Shown here piece after piece: positions 11,497-44,475 of a stretch of 64,000 bases of DNA. Below the pieces are notes generated by a model. The model saw only the letters and a program-made list of their open reading frames with translations, made no database searches and was not told where the DNA came from. The stretch is taken from NCBI RefSeq assembly GCF_013046825.1, contig NZ_CP053187.1, forward strand, positions 2,576,001 to 2,640,000, written 5' to 3'. Positions within the stretch are counted from its first letter, which is position 1; the number at the start of each line of letters is the position of its first letter. Position numbers and translations under genes: made by a program. Source of the stretch: Turicibacter sanguinis. Lineage in GTDB: Bacteria; Bacillota_I; Bacilli_A; MOL361; Turicibacteraceae.

Positions 11497-13341
11497 ATGT
11501 GTGGGTTAGTTGCATTAATAAAACAAAAGCAAATCACCGTAAATGATTTAGCTTTTTCATATCAGGCTTTACAAAAAATGAAACATCGGGGACCTGATGA
11601 TCAAGATTTGTATTATAAAGACCACCTCATTCTTGGATTTAATCGATTAAGCATCATTGATTTAAAACAGGGGGTCCAACCGTTTCATCGTGATGACTAT
11701 AACTGTCATCTCGTCTTCAATGGCGAAATCTATAATTATCAAGAACTTCGAAATCAATTAGAAAAACTCGGTTTTTCCTTTGACACTCAATGTGAGGCGG
11801 AAGTCATTCTTTGTTTATATCACCTACTTGGAAAAGAATTCATTACACAGTTACGTGGCATGTTTTCACTCGTTTTATACGATGAACGAACAGAAGAGCT
11901 CATTGCTGTTCGGGATCGATTTGGAATTAAACCGTTGTATTATTATGTAGAAGATGATGTTTTATTCTTAACGTCAGAACTAAAACCTTTTAAACAATCT
12001 ACCATACCTGAGGCTAGTCTTGATTTTATTGCTTTACAGCATTACTTTACCTTTCAATATATCCCAGAACCTTTGACGTGTTTGAAAGATGTCAAAGTAT
12101 TAGAACCCGGAACTTATTTAACCTACCAACGAAATAAAGGGATTGAAATCAAAGCTTATAATACCATTCAATTAATTCCCCATCATCAAATCTCATCGTT
12201 ACATAAACATCAATTAGAAACCGTCATCAAAGAATCTGTTCGTGCTCACTTACAAAGCGATGTAGAGGTCGGATGCTTCTTATCAGGAGGGGTGGATTCG
12301 ACTATCATTACAGCTTGTGCTAATCAATATCATCCAAAAATTAAAGCCTTCACGATTGGCTTTCACGAAGCGGGATATAGTGAAATCGAGGCCGCACGTG
12401 AGACCGCCGATTTTTTAAATATTCCTTTATACAGCCGATTCATTACCGCTCAAGAATTTATCGAGGCAACCAAAACAGTCATTGATTATCTCGATAGCCC
12501 GGTTGCCGATCCCTCCGTAACAGCCATTTATTTAGTCGCTCAAGAAGCGCGTAAACAAGTTAAAGTCATTTTGTCAGGTGAGGGGGCAGATGAACTGTTT
12601 GGAGGTTATCGGATTTATCGTGAGCCTAAGTCACTTGAAGTCTTTAATTACTTATCACCTAATACGAAAAGAAGTTTACTCACGTTATCTCATTTGATTC
12701 CAACTGGAGTAAAAGGGAAGAGTTTCATCGAAAGAGGATGTATCCCCCTAAAGGACCGGTATGTTGGAAATGCCTTTGTCTTTAATGAACGTGAAAAACA
12801 ACAGTTGCTAAATTTTTATGATCAAAACTTTACGTTTAAAGACATTACCGCACCACTATTTGAACAAATTCAAGATTTAGATCCTGTCTCTCAAATGCAA
12901 ATGATTGATCTTCATACCTGGCTAAGAGGGGATATCTTGGTCAAATCAGATCGTCTATCGATGGCACATGCCTTAGAAGTACGTGTTCCATTTCTTGATC
13001 AAAAGGTCTTTCAACTAGCAAAGCAACTGACAACAAATGAAAAGATAGGGCAGAATCAAACGAAAGTTTTTTTGCGAGAAGCGTTTAAAGAGATGATTCC
13101 ACCTCATGTGTATGAGGCCAATAAAAAAGGGTATCCCGTTCCATTAAAGACCTGGCTCAAGAATGAACTGTATGATGAAGCCAAGCGCTTAATTTTATCC
13201 CCTCAGTGTGAGCATTTAATCAACCAAAAATCAGCACTTCGGTATCTTGATCAACATGCAACCGGGAAACACAATCACGCTCGTAAAATTTGGGCGTTGA
13301 TGACCTTTGTAATGTGGTACGAAAGTTGGAAAATAGAGTAA
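11497..13341 (+). CDS. asnB: Asparagine synthetase (glutamine-hydrolysing)
   Basis: A 614-residue cytoplasmic enzyme converting aspartate, glutamine and ATP to asparagine. The amino domain is a class II glutaminase with Cys2 as nucleophile (MCGLVALIK), RGPDDQ and FNGEIYNYQELR; the carboxy domain is the adenylating synthetase with SGGVDST near residue 265 and SGEGADELFGGY near 365. A GTG at 11488 is in frame, but AAGGTG lies nine bases before the ATG at 11497 and only that start puts Cys at position 2. L-asparaginase is encoded 2.3 kb downstream. Two LexA-like boxes lie upstream. Confidence 0.95.
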   Translation: MCGLVALIKQKQITVNDLAFSYQALQKMKHRGPDDQDLYYKDHLILGFNRLSIIDLKQGVQPFHRDDYNCHLVFNGEIYNYQELRNQLEKLGFSFDTQCEAEVILCLYHLLGKEFITQLRGMFSLVLYDERTEELIAVRDRFGIKPLYYYVEDDVLFLTSELKPFKQSTIPEASLDFIALQHYFTFQYIPEPLTCLKDVKVLEPGTYLTYQRNKGIEIKAYNTIQLIPHHQISSLHKHQLETVIKESVRAHLQSDVEVGCFLSGGVDSTIITACANQYHPKIKAFTIGFHEAGYSEIEAARETADFLNIPLYSRFITAQEFIEATKTVIDYLDSPVADPSVTAIYLVAQEARKQVKVILSGEGADELFGGYRIYREPKSLEVFNYLSPNTKRSLLTLSHLIPTGVKGKSFIERGCIPLKDRYVGNAFVFNEREKQQLLNFYDQNFTFKDITAPLFEQIQDLDPVSQMQMIDLHTWLRGDILVKSDRLSMAHALEVRVPFLDQKVFQLAKQLTTNEKIGQNQTKVFLREAFKEMIPPHVYEANKKGYPVPLKTWLKNELYDEAKRLILSPQCEHLINQKSALRYLDQHATGKHNHARKIWALMTFVMWYESWKIE

Positions 13342-13424
13342 ACCAAACTCGTCAAGTATAAAAAGGATATTTTCATGTTATAATAACTAAATAATACTCT
13401 TTTTATCTAATACTGGAGGCACTT

Positions 13425-14108
13425 ATGAAACCAAACTACTATTTTATTACTTTTACAGTGGCCATGTTAATCGTCACTTTATTAAACTTTTTAGTTGAAT
13501 TAAATGCTTATACACCTCCAGTTTCTGAATCTGATCAAGCCGTTATGGGACAAGTACAGGATGCGTTTAAAGTTGTCGATTATCCTATGACGTTAATTAC
13601 ACTTGAAGAACAATGTATTAATGAAGAATCCTATCAAGTCCCTTGTCATGCATTACAAGACGTCCAAAAGGGAGACATCTTAATTTCTAAATCAAGTCAT
13701 ACCTTGCTTTTTCGTCACGGTCATGCCGGGGTAGTGGTTGATGCAGAAGCGGGACTTGTCCTTGAATCACTTGGTTATGGTGAAACCTCAACGCTACAAC
13801 CCCTTTCTAAATGGGATTATTATCCGACTGTTAAAGTATTACGTTTAAAAGATGCCACGCCTGAGTTAATGGACCAAATCGTTGAAATTGCCCAAACACA
13901 GTTTTTAAATTTAGACTATAATGTGTTTGTCTCTAAAAAAGATTTAAGTGCCACGCATTGCTCTGATATTGTTTGGAAAATATTTAATGAAGTAGGGATT
14001 GATTTAGATAGTAATGGAGGACGGACAGTAACACCACAAGATATTGCAGCTAGTGAACTGTTATACGAAGTGGAATCATACGGATTTTCATCGGAAAGAG
14101 AATGGTAA
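13425..14108 (+). CDS. Membrane-anchored YiiX/NlpC-P60-like permuted papain hydrolase
   Basis: A 227-residue protein with an uncleaved-looking amino signal anchor (about residues 5-25) and an extracytoplasmic domain. HGHAGVVVD near residue 100 supplies the histidine and THCSDIVW near residue 184 the cysteine of the circularly permuted papain-like fold used by YiiX/YebB and NlpC/P60 relatives. KGDIL before the histidine is also typical. Substrates may be cell wall peptides or lipids; unproven. GGAGGC precedes the ATG. It follows asnB by 83 bases and is ended by a GC-rich terminator. Confidence 0.78.
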   Translation: MKPNYYFITFTVAMLIVTLLNFLVELNAYTPPVSESDQAVMGQVQDAFKVVDYPMTLITLEEQCINEESYQVPCHALQDVQKGDILISKSSHTLLFRHGHAGVVVDAEAGLVLESLGYGETSTLQPLSKWDYYPTVKVLRLKDATPELMDQIVEIAQTQFLNLDYNVFVSKKDLSATHCSDIVWKIFNEVGIDLDSNGGRTVTPQDIAASELLYEVESYGFSSEREW

Positions 14109-14118
14109 GATAACAAAT

Positions 14119-14146
14119 GAACGCGCTAACCTTAGCGCGCTTTTTA
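14119..14146 (+). terminator. Intrinsic terminator
   Basis: CGCGCTAA and TTAGCGCG form a GC-rich stem around CC, followed by CTTTTT. Confidence 0.87.
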
Positions 14147-14245
14147 TTGAAAATCTAAAAATTTATACTATTTTTCCATTTGTATGAATGCTGTATTCCT
14201 GTACAATAATAAGGTAGAAGTATTAAAAAAGAAGGGGCGTTAATC

Positions 14246-15625
14246 TTGCCATTAGCAGAATTTAAGTATATAGAAAAAGCGTTGGCTACACTGGATAAAA
14301 AAAGTGAGCAACTCCAAATTATTTCAACTTTATTACAAATAGAGTTCGAACAAATTGTTAACTTATATGATATTGAATATTTAAACATTACATCACGTGT
14401 TAAAAGCCACGATAGTTTAAAAGAAAAAATCTTACGTCAAGGATACTATAAAAAATATAATGATCCGATTCGTTTAATCTACCATCTATCTGATTTAATA
14501 GGGGTAAGAATTGAATGCCGTTTTGAACAAGATGAACGTGAAATTTATAAAATTCTCAGAAAACATTTCAATATCCGAAATGAAGAAGGGTATTACTACA
14601 ATGACATGAATCCAAATGTTAAATTGAGTTTAGATGGTCGACAACCACAAAAACAAAAAAATGGATTCAAAATTTATCGAATTGATGGCATCATCACCGA
14701 CACAAATACGGATTTACCATTTGAACTTCAAATCAAATCACTCGTTAATACCTTTTGGGGAGAAATTGAACATAAAATCATCTATAAAAACTATAGTTAC
14801 CTACTAGTGGATGACTTATTAAAAGAGATGATGCATTCGATTAAAAATAACTTGGCTTTACTCGATAAACAGTTATTAACTATTTATCGAAATGTTGAAC
14901 AAAATCAAACCGATGAAGATTACCAACGTAAAGGATTTGAAGATATGTTAGCGAAGATGTGCAACGATGTCTTTGCTAAAAAAATAAAAGCATCGATTGG
15001 CATGAATGTTAATATCAAAAAGGCCTGTCAAACCATTATGAAATATACCTTCTCGCCAACGGTTGGATTTGAATTAAATCAAAACACAGCTACCTTAATT
15101 AAAGCCCTCGAACGATTATCCGAAATTTCAAAACAAACCGTTCATTTCAATGTTCCAATCAAGTTTGAACGTGATCCGATATATACAACACAATTCCAAA
15201 AAATTGTAGGTCCTTATTTTATTGATGTCATGAATAAAGAATTTCATTGGAATTTATTCTTCATTATGTTATTTGAAATCGAACCTCAAGATAATGTTGG
15301 GGACTTTGAAAAGTTTATTGGTTTCTTAGAACAGGCTTATCAATCCTCACCGAGTGTCACACGTCTTAAAAAAGTGCTCTACTCACAACTTGAAGAACAT
15401 AGTGATGACATCATGGAACAAATTATGGTAACCTTAGCTAACAGTATTATTGCAACAGATGATATTGAATGTATTTATGAAGATAGTATTAGTGACGTTA
15501 CGAGTGTCATGATTGATGTCTTACGTGATATTACCTCACAAATTACAACGATTGACCAGTGGCGTGACCAGCAAGATGTCTTATTAACTGAATTAAGTGA
15601 CCGATTTAATGAAGCATTAGAATAG
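14246..15625 (+). CDS. RelA/SpoT-domain (small alarmone synthetase-like) protein
   Basis: A 459-residue protein. Residues about 40-210 match a RelA/SpoT nucleotide pyrophosphokinase domain: RVKSHDSLKEKI, DLIGVRIECRF, and FELQIKSL with TFWGEIEHKIIYK. This would make (p)ppGpp or a related alarmone from ATP and GTP/GDP. The usual YRSLH-like G-loop is replaced by KIYRIDG, so activity is not certain. No HD hydrolase or TGS/ACT domain is present; the carboxy 250 residues are helical and unrecognised. The start is TTG at 14246 with GAAGGGG seven bases upstream; no ATG is close. It is longer than usual for a small alarmone synthetase. Confidence 0.75.
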   Translation: MPLAEFKYIEKALATLDKKSEQLQIISTLLQIEFEQIVNLYDIEYLNITSRVKSHDSLKEKILRQGYYKKYNDPIRLIYHLSDLIGVRIECRFEQDEREIYKILRKHFNIRNEEGYYYNDMNPNVKLSLDGRQPQKQKNGFKIYRIDGIITDTNTDLPFELQIKSLVNTFWGEIEHKIIYKNYSYLLVDDLLKEMMHSIKNNLALLDKQLLTIYRNVEQNQTDEDYQRKGFEDMLAKMCNDVFAKKIKASIGMNVNIKKACQTIMKYTFSPTVGFELNQNTATLIKALERLSEISKQTVHFNVPIKFERDPIYTTQFQKIVGPYFIDVMNKEFHWNLFFIMLFEIEPQDNVGDFEKFIGFLEQAYQSSPSVTRLKKVLYSQLEEHSDDIMEQIMVTLANSIIATDDIECIYEDSISDVTSVMIDVLRDITSQITTIDQWRDQQDVLLTELSDRFNEALE

Positions 15626-15660
15626 AAAAAAAGCGCAATTTTTTAAATTGCGCTTTTTTT
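15626..15660. terminator. Bidirectional intrinsic terminator
   Basis: AAAAGCGCAATTT and AAATTGCGCTTTT with A and T runs on both sides serve the RelA-like gene (+) and the convergent asparaginase (-). Confidence 0.87.
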
Positions 15661-15661
15661 C

Positions 15662-16642
15662 TTAGTCAACAAAGTATGATTTTAATTCTTCTGTTGTTTT
15701 TGAAACAGTTAAAGCTAACATCAATTGGATGCGAGCTTTTTGACCATTTAAATTACTCGCTAAGATAGCCCCCATATCGCGAAGCTGGGCACCACCACCA
15801 AGATATCCATAAGATCCAAGCACTCGTCCTTGTAAACAACGTGAAACAATGACCACCGGAATCTTATTTTCTGTTGCGGCCTTTATACCTTCTAACATTA
15901 GCGGTGGAACATTTCCACGTCCCATCGCTTCAATGACAATCCCTTTAACGTTTTGGCTCACTAGGAAGTTAAGAATGGTTGAATCCATTCCAGAAACGGC
16001 TTTAAGCAAGTGAACATCTGATTCAATTTGATTTGTTTCAATGTGGGGAGTAGGGGCAGAGCTTTTATGATAATAAATCACTTCATCTTGATCAACAATT
16101 CCAATAGGACCAAATTCAGGTGATTTAAAGGTATCAAGACTCATCGTATGTGTTTTCGTCACTTCACGAGCTGTGTTGACTTCATTGTTTAAGACAACCA
16201 AAACACCTTTTCCACGAGAGTTTTCGTGAGCAGCCGTACAAATAGCTGCCGCTAGATTACTTGGTCCATCATATCCAAGTTCCGATCCATTACGCATCGC
16301 TCCAACTACAACAACTGGTTTTTCAGATGATAGCGTTAAATCTAATAAATACGCAGTTTCTTCTAAGTTATCCGTTCCGTGTGTCACAACAACTCCACAG
16401 ATATCCTCTTGTTTTAATTTATTTTCTACGACTTGTTTTAATTCCATCATTTTCTCAGGTGTCATATGAGGCCCTGGTAGAGCACCAAATTCAACAATAT
16501 CAAGTTCAGCAATTTGATCAATATTCGTAACCATTGACATGATATCTTGACTAGACATTGAAGGGATAGCCGCTTTTAAACGAGGATCAACTTTCATTGA
16601 AATAGTCCCACCGGTAAATACTACTGCCACTTTTTTCATCAT
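15662..16642 (-). CDS. ansA: L-asparaginase, type I-like
   Basis: A 326-residue cytoplasmic enzyme hydrolysing asparagine to aspartate and ammonia. FTGGTIS at residues 9-15 carries the catalytic threonine and HGTDN near residue 90 the second Thr/Asp pair. There is no signal peptide, so it is the intracellular form. GGAGGG lies six bases before ATGATG. A good promoter is found 36 bases upstream. It faces asnB, whose product it would degrade, across the RelA-like gene. Confidence 0.92.
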   Translation of the reverse strand: MMKKVAVVFTGGTISMKVDPRLKAAIPSMSSQDIMSMVTNIDQIAELDIVEFGALPGPHMTPEKMMELKQVVENKLKQEDICGVVVTHGTDNLEETAYLLDLTLSSEKPVVVVGAMRNGSELGYDGPSNLAAAICTAAHENSRGKGVLVVLNNEVNTAREVTKTHTMSLDTFKSPEFGPIGIVDQDEVIYYHKSSAPTPHIETNQIESDVHLLKAVSGMDSTILNFLVSQNVKGIVIEAMGRGNVPPLMLEGIKAATENKIPVVIVSRCLQGRVLGSYGYLGGGAQLRDMGAILASNLNGQKARIQLMLALTVSKTTEELKSYFVD

Positions 16643-20619: not shown

Positions 20620-20733
20620 TAAAAAAAACACTGTAGCAGTGTCTTTTCAAATACAATATAGATACAACATAAATAGAGGTATGAGAAAGAGAAGAAAGGT
20701 GAGCTCTAAGTTGTAATGTCTAAGTTGGGCTCA
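20620..20733 (-). ncRNA. Candidate small RNA B (about 113 nt)
   Basis: It starts about 6 bases after a promoter (TTGTAT-18-CATAAT). A 5' hairpin closed by TGAGC/GCTCA is followed by a C/U-rich tract (CACCTTTCTTCTCTTTCTC) and a terminator ACACTG-CTA-CAGTGT with eight T. The layout copies candidate RNA A directly upstream. No open frame longer than seven codons is present. Confidence 0.6.
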
Positions 20734-20738
20734 ATCAT

Positions 20739-20768
20739 ATTATGGTTTGAATTTAAAATTATATACAA
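20739..20768 (-). promoter_or_regulatory. Promoter of candidate small RNA B
   Basis: On the - strand TTGTAT (20768-20763), an 18-bp spacer and CATAAT (20744-20739). Confidence 0.55.
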
Positions 20769-20791
20769 TAAATCATCATAATATTTAAAAA

Positions 20792-20868
20792 AATAAAAAA
20801 ACACCATTGCCGGTCAATGGTGTTTTAGGAATGTAGGTAAAGATAAGGAGTGTGAGCACAACTGGCTC
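20792..20868 (-). ncRNA. Candidate small RNA A (about 77 nt)
   Basis: It follows a near-consensus promoter. The 5' hairpin is TGAGC-CAGTTGT-GCTCA, then a pyrimidine tract with CACTCCTTATCTTTACCT, complementary to Shine-Dalgarno sequences, then terminator ACACCATTG/CAATGGTGT with a T run. It lies downstream of the Rieske oxidoreductase gene, whose mRNA may end at the same terminator, so processing from that 3' UTR is an alternative. Confidence 0.65.
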
Positions 20869-20874
20869 ATTACT

Positions 20875-20904
20875 ATTATACTTTTAAAAGATTAAGAGTT
20901 TCAA
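20875..20904 (-). promoter_or_regulatory. Promoter of candidate small RNA A
   Basis: On the - strand TTGAAA (20904-20899), an 18-bp spacer and TATAAT (20880-20875). Confidence 0.75.
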
Positions 20905-21040: not shown

Positions 21041-22567
21041 TTAATCATCTGATCTAAAAATATTAGGATTCATTTTATTATGATGACAACTTAATGCTTG
21101 ATGAGCAGGTCCTTCTATTACCTCTCCCGTATAAGAAAATCGTGATCCATGACAAGGACAATCCCATGTTCGTTCAGCCGTATTAAAAGCTAGCTCACAC
21201 CCTAGATGAGGACAGGTGATATCAACTAGATAAAGAAGCCCTTCTTTATCTTTATACAAACCATAATTTCCTTCGTTAGTGGCTATAATGGTTGCTTCAT
21301 CAACACCTAATTCTACGTTTTTCTCACCTAATTTTAACTTACCTTTTATGTATTCAAACGCTACCTTTGAATTGTAAGCGATTAAATTCTTAATTGCCAT
21401 TTTAGAGTTTAAACGGCTTGGAGAGAATAGGGCAGTATACGGACTATCCATCCCTCTAATCAATTGATTTAAAAGAAGAGCCGCCGCGGTTCCATTACTC
21501 ATTCCCCATTTACAATATCCAGTTGCAACGAATTGATTTAAACAATCTTTATGAAGTCTCCCTATATAAGGCATATGATCAATCGAGACAACATCTTGTG
21601 TTGACCACTCATATGAAATAGCATCCGTTTGAAACTTTTCTTTTGCAAAGTTAATCAAGGCTTCATAATTTTCATTCGTATCTTTCACGGTACCTGGACG
21701 ATGATTTTCACCTCCAATTAAAAGAAAATTTTGATACGTCCGAATGGAGCGTGTTGGCGATTCATACGAAATATACATTCCATGGGGTAGGGAAGAAGCA
21801 TTCTCAACCGCTATCAAATAGGAATGACTCATCTCAATTTTAGAAAAGAGAAGCGATCCATCATCATAAAATGGAAAATGACAGGCTTGAACCACACGCT
21901 TAGCGTTAACCTTATATCCATTAGATGTGATGATTGAGGAACTTTGATCCTCATTGAAAACCATCTCACAGGCTGTTGTATGCTCATAGATCGAAATATT
22001 AGAATACTCAGCTAGTGCCTTTAATAAACCGACTAAATACTTTAATGGATGAAACTGTGCCTGATTTTTAAATGCAATGGCCTTTTCAATTGGAAAGGGG
22101 AGATCGAGCGATTCTACCAGTTCACAATCCATGTTTAGTGAACGACAGGCTTCATATTCTGCCTCAAATTTTGATAAGTTTGATGCCTCTTGGGTAAAGA
22201 CATAGTGGGGGAGTCTTACAAAATCACAATCAATCTTTAAATCATGTATCGTTTTCGCCACAAAATCAATGGCTTCTTGCTGTGATTCATAATATAGCTT
22301 TGCACCATCATAACCAACATTTTGAATTAAATCCTGATAAATTAACCCTTGACCAGCAGTTAATTTCGCCGTTGTATAAGCAGTTGTCCCATGAATAACT
22401 TGGTCTGAATCAATCAATGCAATCTTTAAGCCAGAATCACGTAACAAATAAGCCAACGTAATCCCAGTTATTCCGGCACCCACAATACAAACATCAACAG
22501 ATAGATCTTCACATAGCGAATGATAACTAGGAACGACCGTCGTATCTAACCAAAGTGGAACTTTCAT
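21041..22567 (-). CDS. FAD-dependent oxidoreductase with C-terminal Rieske [2Fe-2S] domain
   Basis: A 508-residue cytoplasmic enzyme. The amino end has the FAD-binding GxGxxG-type motif (VGAGITG, about residues 29-35) of the DAO family. The carboxy end is a Rieske domain: C452/H454 (CPH) and C470/H473 (CPCH) would ligate the iron-sulfur cluster. DAO-Rieske fusions are widespread, function mostly unknown; they may oxidise an amine or other small molecule and pass electrons to the cluster. AGGAGG precedes the ATG. The gene sits immediately beside the dif site, which is in its upstream region. Confidence 0.88.
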   Translation of the reverse strand: MKVPLWLDTTVVPSYHSLCEDLSVDVCIVGAGITGITLAYLLRDSGLKIALIDSDQVIHGTTAYTTAKLTAGQGLIYQDLIQNVGYDGAKLYYESQQEAIDFVAKTIHDLKIDCDFVRLPHYVFTQEASNLSKFEAEYEACRSLNMDCELVESLDLPFPIEKAIAFKNQAQFHPLKYLVGLLKALAEYSNISIYEHTTACEMVFNEDQSSSIITSNGYKVNAKRVVQACHFPFYDDGSLLFSKIEMSHSYLIAVENASSLPHGMYISYESPTRSIRTYQNFLLIGGENHRPGTVKDTNENYEALINFAKEKFQTDAISYEWSTQDVVSIDHMPYIGRLHKDCLNQFVATGYCKWGMSNGTAAALLLNQLIRGMDSPYTALFSPSRLNSKMAIKNLIAYNSKVAFEYIKGKLKLGEKNVELGVDEATIIATNEGNYGLYKDKEGLLYLVDITCPHLGCELAFNTAERTWDCPCHGSRFSYTGEVIEGPAHQALSCHHNKMNPNIFRSDD

Positions 22568-32464: not shown

Positions 32465-33356
32465 CGATGATTTCTTCCTCTCTTTTTTTACTTGATACTA
32501 ATAAAGCAAGTTCCCTTAATACTTTACATGCCACTAACGTTGAGACATTCGATTGATCATAATGCGGACTTAACTCAACCAAGTCGGCTCCTACTAACTC
32601 AACCTCTGCGTTCTTAAGTGCCGTAAACACTGTTTCTAGCTCACGATAAGTAATGCCTCCCGCTTCTGGAGTTCCTGTTCCAGGGAAAATGGATGGATCT
32701 AACACATCTAAATCAAGTGTGACATACACTGGACATCCTTTTAAAGACTTCAGAACTTTAGCGACACTGTGAACCGTAAACGGCTCCATATAAGTATGGT
32801 AATCTTTTAATGCAAAATTAAACTCTTCCTTTGTTCCCGAACGAATTCCAAATTGAAAAATATGTCCATCCCCAAGTAAATCATGTATACGACGAATGAC
32901 TGTCGCATGGGATAACGTCTCATTATGATACGTCTGACGCAAGTCTGTATGAGCATCAAAGTGAAGCACATGAATATCTTGATACTTTTCAAAAAGAGCC
33001 TCCATGACTGGAAGAGTAACCAAATGCTCTCCTCCAATCATCAACGGCTTTTTCCCTGCTTCTAATACTTCTTTTGTCACTTCTTTAATTTCTTCTAGAC
33101 ATTTTATTGTATTACCATTCGATAAATTGACATCCCCTAAATCACAAATCTTGAAGTCTTCTAAATCTAAATCAAGCAATGGACTGTAGGTCTCGATTCC
33201 TTCTGATTCACATCGAAGTTGTCCAGCCGCAAAACGTGTTCCAGGACGATAAGAGGTCGTTCCATCAAAAGGAGCCCCAAAGACAACCACTTCTGCTTCT
33301 TCAAAACTGACATCCATTGCCATAAACGTTGCACGATTACTTAATCGTTTTTGCAT
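32451..33356 (-). CDS. speB: Agmatinase
   Basis: A 301-residue ureohydrolase converting agmatine to putrescine and urea. Mn-binding motifs are [10 protein letters not shown] (about 98-107), [10 protein letters not shown] (about 122) and [22 protein letters not shown] (about 210-231). It overlaps both neighbours: its start lies 20 bases inside speE and its end 14 bases inside metK. Context makes agmatinase much more likely than arginase or formimidoylglutamase. Confidence 0.92.
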
Positions 33357-34200
33357 CTTCTAACATCTCCTTCACATAAGTTGGGAGCATAAATGACCCC
33401 ATATGTAAATCTGTATTATAATACTTCGTTTTCAACCCTAAAGCTTGCCATTTATCTACTTTAGCATCTAGAAGTGGATCAAGCGTTTTAGAAGCAAAGC
33501 CAAATAACCAATGCCCTGATGGATAAGTTGGAATATGTGCTTGATACACTTTAGAAATTGGGAAAATTCGATGAATCTTCTCATGTGCTCGCTTCATTTC
33601 ATGTGCATTATGAGCAAAATATGGACTTTCATTTTGATTCACTAAAATTCCATCTTTTGATAAAATACGATAGCAATTTTCATAGAATTCAGTTGTAAAT
33701 AACCCTTCTCCAGGTCCAATTGGATCCGTTGAATCCACAATAATTAAATCATAAGTTCCTGATGTAGCGTTTGCTACCCATGCCACTCCATCTTCAAAGT
33801 ATAAGTTCACTCGCTCATCCTCTAATTTAGAGGCCGTAATCGGTAAATATTCTTGTGAGGCTCGAACAACTAGCTCATCAATTTCAACCATATCAATCTT
33901 TTCGATTTGAGAATATCGTGTTAGTTCACGAACGGTTCCACCGTCACCGCCGCCGATTACTAGCACCTTTTTAATGGCTGGATTCACACACATTGGGGTA
34001 TGTACAATGCAGTCATGATAAATAAATTCATCTTTCTCATTGACCATCATTAATCCATCTAACGTTAAAAATGTACCGAGTTCTTCACTTTTAAATACAT
34101 CAACTTGCTGAAAATCTGATTTCTTTGAAAATAATTGCTTCTCAACCTTTACTGAGAAACGTACCTTATTTGTCCATTCTTCTGTATACCAAAACTCCAT
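33337..34200 (-). CDS. speE: Spermidine synthase
   Basis: A 287-residue aminopropyltransferase making spermidine from putrescine and decarboxylated SAM. The nucleotide-binding motif VLVIGGGDGGTVRE (about 85-98) and the catalytic region DLIIVDSTDPIGPGEGLF (about 152-169) are clear. AAGGAGAG precedes the ATG. It is the third gene of the operon, overlapping speB. Confidence 0.95.
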   Translation of the reverse strand: MEFWYTEEWTNKVRFSVKVEKQLFSKKSDFQQVDVFKSEELGTFLTLDGLMMVNEKDEFIYHDCIVHTPMCVNPAIKKVLVIGGGDGGTVRELTRYSQIEKIDMVEIDELVVRASQEYLPITASKLEDERVNLYFEDGVAWVANATSGTYDLIIVDSTDPIGPGEGLFTTEFYENCYRILSKDGILVNQNESPYFAHNAHEMKRAHEKIHRIFPISKVYQAHIPTYPSGHWLFGFASKTLDPLLDAKVDKWQALGLKTKYYNTDLHMGSFMLPTYVKEMLEDAKTIK

Positions 34201-43812: not shown

Positions 43813-44475
43813 TTATTTAAACGCCTCACATCGATGTGCCACTTCACCACTTGCTTTTGCTAACGCAAGTTCAATGCCACTATCATCAATTTCAGTTCCC
43901 TGAATGAGTAACGGTTCAATACACTCAATTCCTAAAAAACGAAAAACATCATAAAGATACGTAATTCCATGATTGACACGAGTTCAAACGAACGGAATAC
44001 TCATACTTTTAAATGGGTAAATATCAGCAGATGATTGAATATAAATTGCCTTTCGTTTTTTAGTATGAAGTAGGCCTTTTACCCCTTTAGGAGAAATAGA
44101 AATCGTTTGGTCATTTAAAATCAAACAATCTAGGTATTGCTTTAATTTATAAGGGAATGATAACGTCCACATCGGTGCTGCAATGACATAGCGATCGGCA
44201 CTCTTAAATTGGTCACACAGTTGTTGCATCCGATTGACAATGTTTTGATCTTGCTCACTTAACTGTCTAAATCGGTCGCCATTAACAAGGGTAGCGCGTG
44301 ATAAAAAATGGTGATCATTTGGTTGTGGAATAGCATCATGAAAAACATTAATTTCTTCAATCACATACTCAGGATGCTGCTCTAAAAAACAATTTAAGAA
44401 AATACGTGCACCTCGTTGACAACTCGATAAAGATTCCGGCTTCGAACTTGCAACAATATACAATAACTTTTTCAT
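43813..44475 (-). pseudogene. FMN-dependent NADH-azoreductase interrupted by an in-frame TGA
   Basis: The frame has 220 codons with one internal stop, TGA at 43986-43984 (codon 164). Before it a flavodoxin-fold azoreductase is clear (LLYIVASSKPES, AAPMWTLSFPYKLKQYLDCLILN); after it the same frame continues TRVNHGITYLYDVFRFLGIE and ends normally with TAA at 43813, matching the carboxy end of AzoR proteins. A single base change from GGA to TGA explains it. As TGA is a normal stop in neighbouring genes (for example 5922), recoding is unlikely. The product would lose about 57 residues. Confidence 0.75.

Follow-up and report, generated by a model that had tools for sequence, protein, structure and literature searches.

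Two predicted small RNA genes, one of them very strongly conserved, downstream of an oxidoreductase gene in Turicibacter

Introduction

The Cia-dependent csRNAs of streptococci, several of which occur per genome, consist of two stem-loops separated by an unpaired and highly similar middle part that is complementary to Shine-Dalgarno (SD) sequences (PMC3091779, PMC4507080). The complementarity of this unpaired region extends to SD sequences and start codons, and it carries the nonamer [A/C]UCCUAAA[A/C] (PMC3091779). In Bacillales, RoxS/RsaE and the sponge RNA RosA/RsaI use C-rich single-stranded regions to pair with SD sequences (PMC8216469, PMC5419742). Gram-positive small RNAs (sRNAs) can also pair with each other, as RosA does with RoxS in B. 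subtilis (PMC8216469).

No study of small RNAs in Turicibacter turned up in a literature search among open-licence papers. Here we analyze two consecutive minus-strand units of Turicibacter sanguinis, RNA1 and RNA2, that had been noticed from the letters of the DNA alone. Judging by sequence signals and conservation, RNA1 is a real and very strongly conserved sRNA gene and RNA2 a less conserved neighbour, each with a predicted transcript.

Materials and methods

The window, i.e. the whole stretch of DNA that was analyzed, comprises 64,000 nucleotides (bases 2,576,001-2,640,000) from the single contig of a 3.0 Mb genome (G000). The comparison set consisted of this genome and four other Turicibacter species (G001-G004), five species in total, and was complemented by three genomes from two other genera of the same family (G005-G007). 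As background for SD complementarity, 464 kb of the genome (the window and 20 stretches amounting to 400 kb) supplied 366 predicted start regions, with mid-gene regions as control. The names murG and mnmG were assigned from protein sequence, not by family search. Genome searches were carried out with an RNA1 covariance model that had its terminator helix 2 columns off; a corrected model led to the same five loci among the compared sequences, and apart from the search for distant structural relatives the shift has no bearing on the conclusions.

Architecture of the two units

On the minus strand of the window, the gene for a FAD/Rieske oxidoreductase is followed by RNA1, then RNA2, and then the gene for a TrpX-like ABC substrate-binding protein. 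The oxidoreductase gene and the parts of RNA1 are located as follows.

21041-22567, minus strand: FAD/Rieske oxidoreductase, with DAO and Rieske domains
20875..20904, minus strand: RNA1 promoter TTGAAA-N18-TATAAT, matching 11 of 12 consensus positions
20869 to about 20795, minus strand: RNA1, a small RNA with a predicted length of about 75-80 nt, 107-113 bits in five of five Turicibacter genomes
20853..20869, minus strand: RNA1 5' hairpin TGAGC-loop-GCTCA, arms at 20869-20865 and 20857-20853
20827..20852, minus strand: RNA1 C/U-rich linker with CTCCTT anti-SD core, invariant and unpaired in predicted folds
20798..20826, minus strand: RNA1 intrinsic terminator stem-loop followed by a T run, stem and loop invariant in five species

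The RNA1 promoter boxes, TTGAA(A/C/G) and TATAAT, are kept in all five species, with a spacer of 17 in the four relatives versus 18 in the window. The loop of the 5' hairpin has 7 nt in the window and 9 nt in G002 and G003, and the stem is predicted with pair probabilities of 0.72-0.99 in the window (0.72-1.0 across all five species). The linker is unpaired in the predicted folds of every species, the whole unit folds better than shuffled sequences (z = -4.1), and a scan of the region returned two terminator-like sites, compared with 0.2 from shuffles. RNA1 is thus built as originally claimed, with its own promoter, a TGAGC/GCTCA 5' hairpin, an unpaired C/U-rich linker and an intrinsic terminator. 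The corresponding parts of RNA2 are listed below.

20739..20768, minus strand: RNA2 promoter TTGTAT-N18-CATAAT (-35 at 20768-20763, -10 at 20744-20739), weak consensus, boxes conserved
20733 to about 20615, minus strand: RNA2, a small RNA with a predicted length of about 110-118 nt, 119-142 bits in four of five Turicibacter genomes
20700..20733, minus strand: RNA2 5' arms TGAGC/GCTCA (20733-20729 and 20704-20700, invariant in four species) with a 24-nt loop
20665..20699, minus strand: RNA2 CU-rich tract CCTTTCTTCTCTTTCTCATACCTC, conserved in G000, G001 and G004, shortened in G002
20622..20648, minus strand: RNA2 intrinsic terminator (GAAAAGACACTG...CAGTGTTTTTTT), found by the terminator scan, 97.9% of cells paired across four species

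The -35 box of RNA2 has only three of six consensus matches, which is why the promoter scan did not list it; TGTATA and CCATA(A/C)TA do not change across four species, in contrast to the spacer between them. The 5' hairpin is weak, since five pairs have to enclose 22-24 nt across species. It forms in the predicted folds of three relatives (probability about 0.25-0.99), and is missing from the minimum-energy fold of the window's copy (stem probability about 0). The design that had been proposed for RNA2 therefore stands for promoter, arms, CU tract and terminator, but not for the 5' hairpin of the window copy.

Genomic context

RNA1 lies downstream of the FAD/Rieske oxidoreductase gene in all five Turicibacter species. 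The gene after RNA2 is hutP in G001, G002 and G004, and hutP directly follows RNA1 in G003, which has no RNA2. The constant place of RNA1 after the oxidoreductase gene, and that of RNA2 upstream of hutP in three genomes and of the TrpX-like ABC gene in the window, would fit signals that are not independent RNAs at all, but, in the case of RNA1, 3' UTR elements or terminators of the oxidoreductase gene and, in that of RNA2, leader elements of the gene that follows. Several findings speak against this explanation, which we consider very improbable. Each RNA has conserved promoter boxes of its own. The approximately 190 nt between the oxidoreductase stop codon and RNA1 have diverged between species apart from short boxes. 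The gene after RNA2 changes from species to species, RNA2 closes with a strong terminator, and in G004 transposase-like ORFs separate RNA1 from RNA2 by about 2.6 kb. In particular, the conserved promoter of RNA1 and the diverged DNA before it make it unlikely that the signal comes only from the oxidoreductase 3' UTR, an objection that the original prediction had raised against itself.

The locus has other features of its own. The RNA-binding antiterminator gene hutP adjoins it in relatives (L022 6804-7229, L025 6196-6645, L024 6905-7330) and is absent from it in the window genome. A motif, (A)TCTACAAAAT, directly 3' of the oxidoreductase stop codon (about 21040-21030 of the window; L022-L025) is nearly invariant in the five species amid diverged DNA. 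Another box, similar to TTTTTNGTGTCG(A/G)AA, is shared by G001-G004 (L022-L025) and missing from the window; it lies upstream of the RNA1 promoter, at a distance of about 100-140 nt, and is possibly a regulator site. Upstream of the TrpX-like gene (window 20548-20365, minus strand), a strong promoter, TTGACT-N17-TATAAT, precedes a leader of about 150 nt. It contains a terminator (CTCTCCAAGATGGAGAG and a T run), can pair alternatively as TTTGTGAG/CTCACAAA, and may encode a short leader peptide, MIDYMESRVLY. This leader looks like an attenuator; against Rfam, it gave a weak Phe_leader match with an E-value of only 1. The pair of units had also been placed near the replication terminus. In about the first 16 kb of the window, GC skew is about 0, and further on it is about -0.17 (change at window 12000-16000), a local shift that is consistent, and only consistent, with a terminus nearby.

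Conservation and distribution

Sequence signals, conservation, restriction to the genus and the failure to detect Hfq are what can be seen directly, and among these conservation weighs most. RNA1 has 66 consecutive positions that are invariant across five species. This block extends from the 5' hairpin loop as far as the T run, and within the hairpin only loop bases vary. In the adjacent oxidoreductase gene, identity between species at four-fold synonymous sites is 25-47%, which is near saturation, and the longest stretch of DNA without change measures 8 nt (five-species comparison, with only the C-terminal part of the gene aligned for G002). As 66 consecutive positions remain identical where synonymous sites are saturated, RNA1 is under very strong selection. 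RNA2 is conserved less strictly but clearly, in its arms, CU tract, terminator and -35 and -10 boxes. RNA1 is present in five of five Turicibacter genomes and RNA2 in four, G003 being the exception. The conservation in relatives, on which the original prediction had made itself depend, was thus found, and it speaks well for two separate small RNA genes.

There is no covariation for RNA1 (five species) or RNA2 (four species), and the arms never vary in either. A conserved open reading frame is lacking in RNA1, because a loop indel of 2 nt between species breaks any frame; coding potential can therefore be dismissed, in agreement with the initial remark that no open frame fits.

BLAST searches in 60 relatives returned short AT-rich matches only and no homologues outside Turicibacter, and the covariance models for RNA1 and RNA2 had no match in G005-G007. 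An exact 19-mer search across 84,980 species, in which records near the window genome may be hidden, led to Turicibacter UBA7094 and otherwise only to two matches in Bacteroidota. The latter are without hairpin or terminator and were discarded as chance, as was the single match in IMG/VR. Weak matches of the RNA2 model at genome positions 283594 and 881837 (E 0.04-0.07) were rejected as well, being due to terminator likeness only.

The RNA2 model also recovers RNA1, at full length and on the right strand (29.0 bits, E 0.004 in the window; 27.8 bits, E 0.007 in G003). This gives weak support to the suggestion that the two are divergent duplicates, and RNA1 and RNA2 are probably related by ancient descent.

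Complementarity to Shine-Dalgarno sequences

The core of the RNA1 linker, CACUCCUUA, is complementary to SD sites. Complements of 9 nt to the linker occur in 11 of the 366 start regions and in no mid-CDS region; for 8 nt the counts are 25 versus 4, and for 7 nt 65 versus 17. Much of this enrichment is a matter of composition, since composition-matched shuffled linkers also match start regions often: 4.3 times on average with 9 nt (p=0.054), 15.4 times with 8 nt (p=0.128) and 47.4 times with 7 nt (p=0.146). The CUCCUUA core matches start regions about as well as 7-mers of the 16S anti-SD. Complements of the RNA2 tract in the sampled start regions are not above shuffles (p=0.38-0.74). The proposal that both tracts act on SD sequences is accordingly plausible for RNA1, where the 9-nt result is marginal, and, with base composition taken into account, weak for RNA2.

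Two SD sites carry the RNA1 anti-SD complement in four genomes each, those of murG (G000, G001, G003 and G004) and mnmG (G000, G001, G002 and G004). These genes are candidate RNA1 targets in the sense of leads; they are statistically unsupported, since SD sites are frequently conserved in any case and exist in many variants, of which TAAGGAGTG is one. In a control for TAAGGAGTG, TG followed TAAGGAG in 7 of 100 G004 sites listed. In four species (L131, L091, L076, L080), the conserved AATAAGGAGTG of murG is immediately preceded by a small hairpin of the GACT..AGTC type, the sequence of which differs.

Long complements to RNA1 are found at a flavodoxin-like gene (window 43990-44475) and at a gene near window 33339-34200 that resembles spermidine synthase by the look of its sequence only. 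The flavodoxin-like gene has the best RNA1 duplex, equalled by 0 of 200 shuffles. It was rejected as a conserved target, as a close copy exists in G000 only and relatives are at most 43% identical. None of the targets with long complementarity (15-19 nt) is conserved between species.

Hfq was not detected in four near-complete Turicibacter genomes, with a positive control in B. subtilis. Pairing between RNA1 and mRNAs would therefore be Hfq-independent, as is usual for sRNAs of Firmicutes.

In RNA1, the terminator stem and loop are just as free of change as the linker. This is more than anti-SD action, or any sRNA that works through a seed, would need, and it counts against a pure anti-SD role. 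Together with the marginal enrichment over shuffles, this could mean that linker and terminator form one protein-binding surface, and that RNA1 is a structural RNA or a sequestering or decoy RNA for a protein rather than an antisense molecule. We judge this unlikely: fold prediction gives two hairpins joined by an open single strand and no long duplex, Rfam has no match of any class, and the linker core is an exact SD complement.

Pairing between RNA1 and RNA2

The 5' end of RNA2, UGAGCACAAC, is the reverse complement of GUUGUGCUCA in RNA1, at 10 of 10 positions in G001 and G004 and at 9 of 10 in G000 and G002. Predicted RNA1-RNA2 duplexes have energies of -16 to -21 kcal/mol in these four genomes, which are all that carry both RNAs. 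This is suggestive of RNAs that act on each other, with pairing leading to titration or destabilisation much as for RosA and RoxS. The two could then be a built-in regulator/counter-regulator pair, in which the hairpins open into a UGAGCACAAC/GUUGUGCUCA heteroduplex and the two anti-SD RNAs control each other's stability. When the RNA2 loop was shuffled and the arms were kept, duplexes as strong arose in only 1.2% (G001), 1.2% (G004) and 5.3% (G002) of cases. However, the shared arms permit strand swapping by themselves, and in the window's own copy one position is mismatched and the duplex does not stand out from shuffles (18%). Moreover, G003 retains an unchanged RNA1 without any RNA2, and the pairing would leave the anti-SD linker uncovered. 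Both mutual action and the counter-regulator model built on it thus seem decidedly improbable.

Discussion

Rfam has no family match for RNA1 or RNA2 at gathering level and nothing credible up to E 10, including any Firmicutes sRNA family, which bears out the original statement that no described family has this hairpin. Of what makes a trans-acting sRNA in general, the sequences show own promoter, intrinsic terminator, no open frame, and a conserved unpaired tract; a discrete transcript and mRNA targets are predicted. On our best reading of the sequences, the generic kind is known and the family new.

The csRNAs come closest in design, since RNA1, too, is predicted in five species to fold into two stem-loops with an unpaired anti-SD region between them. 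RNA1 has UUCCUAAAA, which matches the csRNA nonamer at 8 of 9 positions, whereas RNA2 has no nonamer. In RNA1 this piece sits at the 3' end of the linker beside the terminator, and not after the first stem-loop as in csRNAs. The CiaR repeat that defines csRNAs (NTTAAG/TTTAAG-N5-TTTAAG, 10 nt before the -10 box) is absent from the RNA1 and RNA2 promoters of all species. The absence of CiaR repeats and the position of the nonamer-like piece put RNA1 outside the family, and csRNAs are streptococcal, whereas RNA1 belongs to another genus, has no Rfam match and no known dependence on CiaRH. By this comparison, RNA1 would be csRNA-like in its working, but it is not a csRNA.

Likewise, neither tract has a CCC run such as the C-rich (CCC-type) regions of RoxS/RsaE have, and the RoxS/RsaE covariance model matches neither RNA up to E 10. 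When RosA pairs with its partner, the C-rich region of the latter is covered; for RNA2, by contrast, pairing would be limited to the RNA1 hairpin.

The LhrC/sibling sRNAs of Listeria are several RNAs that resemble each other and combine CU-rich anti-SD tracts with a terminator, and RNA1 and RNA2 share this description. Unlike them, RNA1 and RNA2 have no UCCC motifs and no Rfam match, and there are just two diverged copies.

The best reading by analogy is that RNA1 is an anti-SD repressor of csRNA/RoxS design and a member of neither family. For the pair as a whole, we favour, with some reserve, independently transcribed, genus-specific Turicibacter sRNAs, of which RNA1 would block SDs with its linker and RNA2 would have targets of its own. 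Transcription, mRNA pairing, repression and the identity of targets are what we infer in the following model. RNA1 would start at the 5' hairpin, which may protect the 5' end, and would end at the terminator hairpin, so that the invariant 26-nt linker stays single-stranded between the two. Via CACUCCUUA(UCUUU), the linker would pair with the SD regions of several mRNAs, block ribosome binding and promote mRNA decay without Hfq. RNA2, with a similar layout and a different CU tract, would act on its own set of targets.

Turicibacter is a common gut commensal. Being under very strong selection, RNA1 recommends itself as a first sRNA to be studied in this genus, and it would offer a clean case of post-transcriptional regulation in a Gram-positive in which Hfq went undetected. 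If RNA1 is an anti-Shine-Dalgarno regulator, the csRNA/RoxS design would have arisen separately in another lineage of Bacilli.
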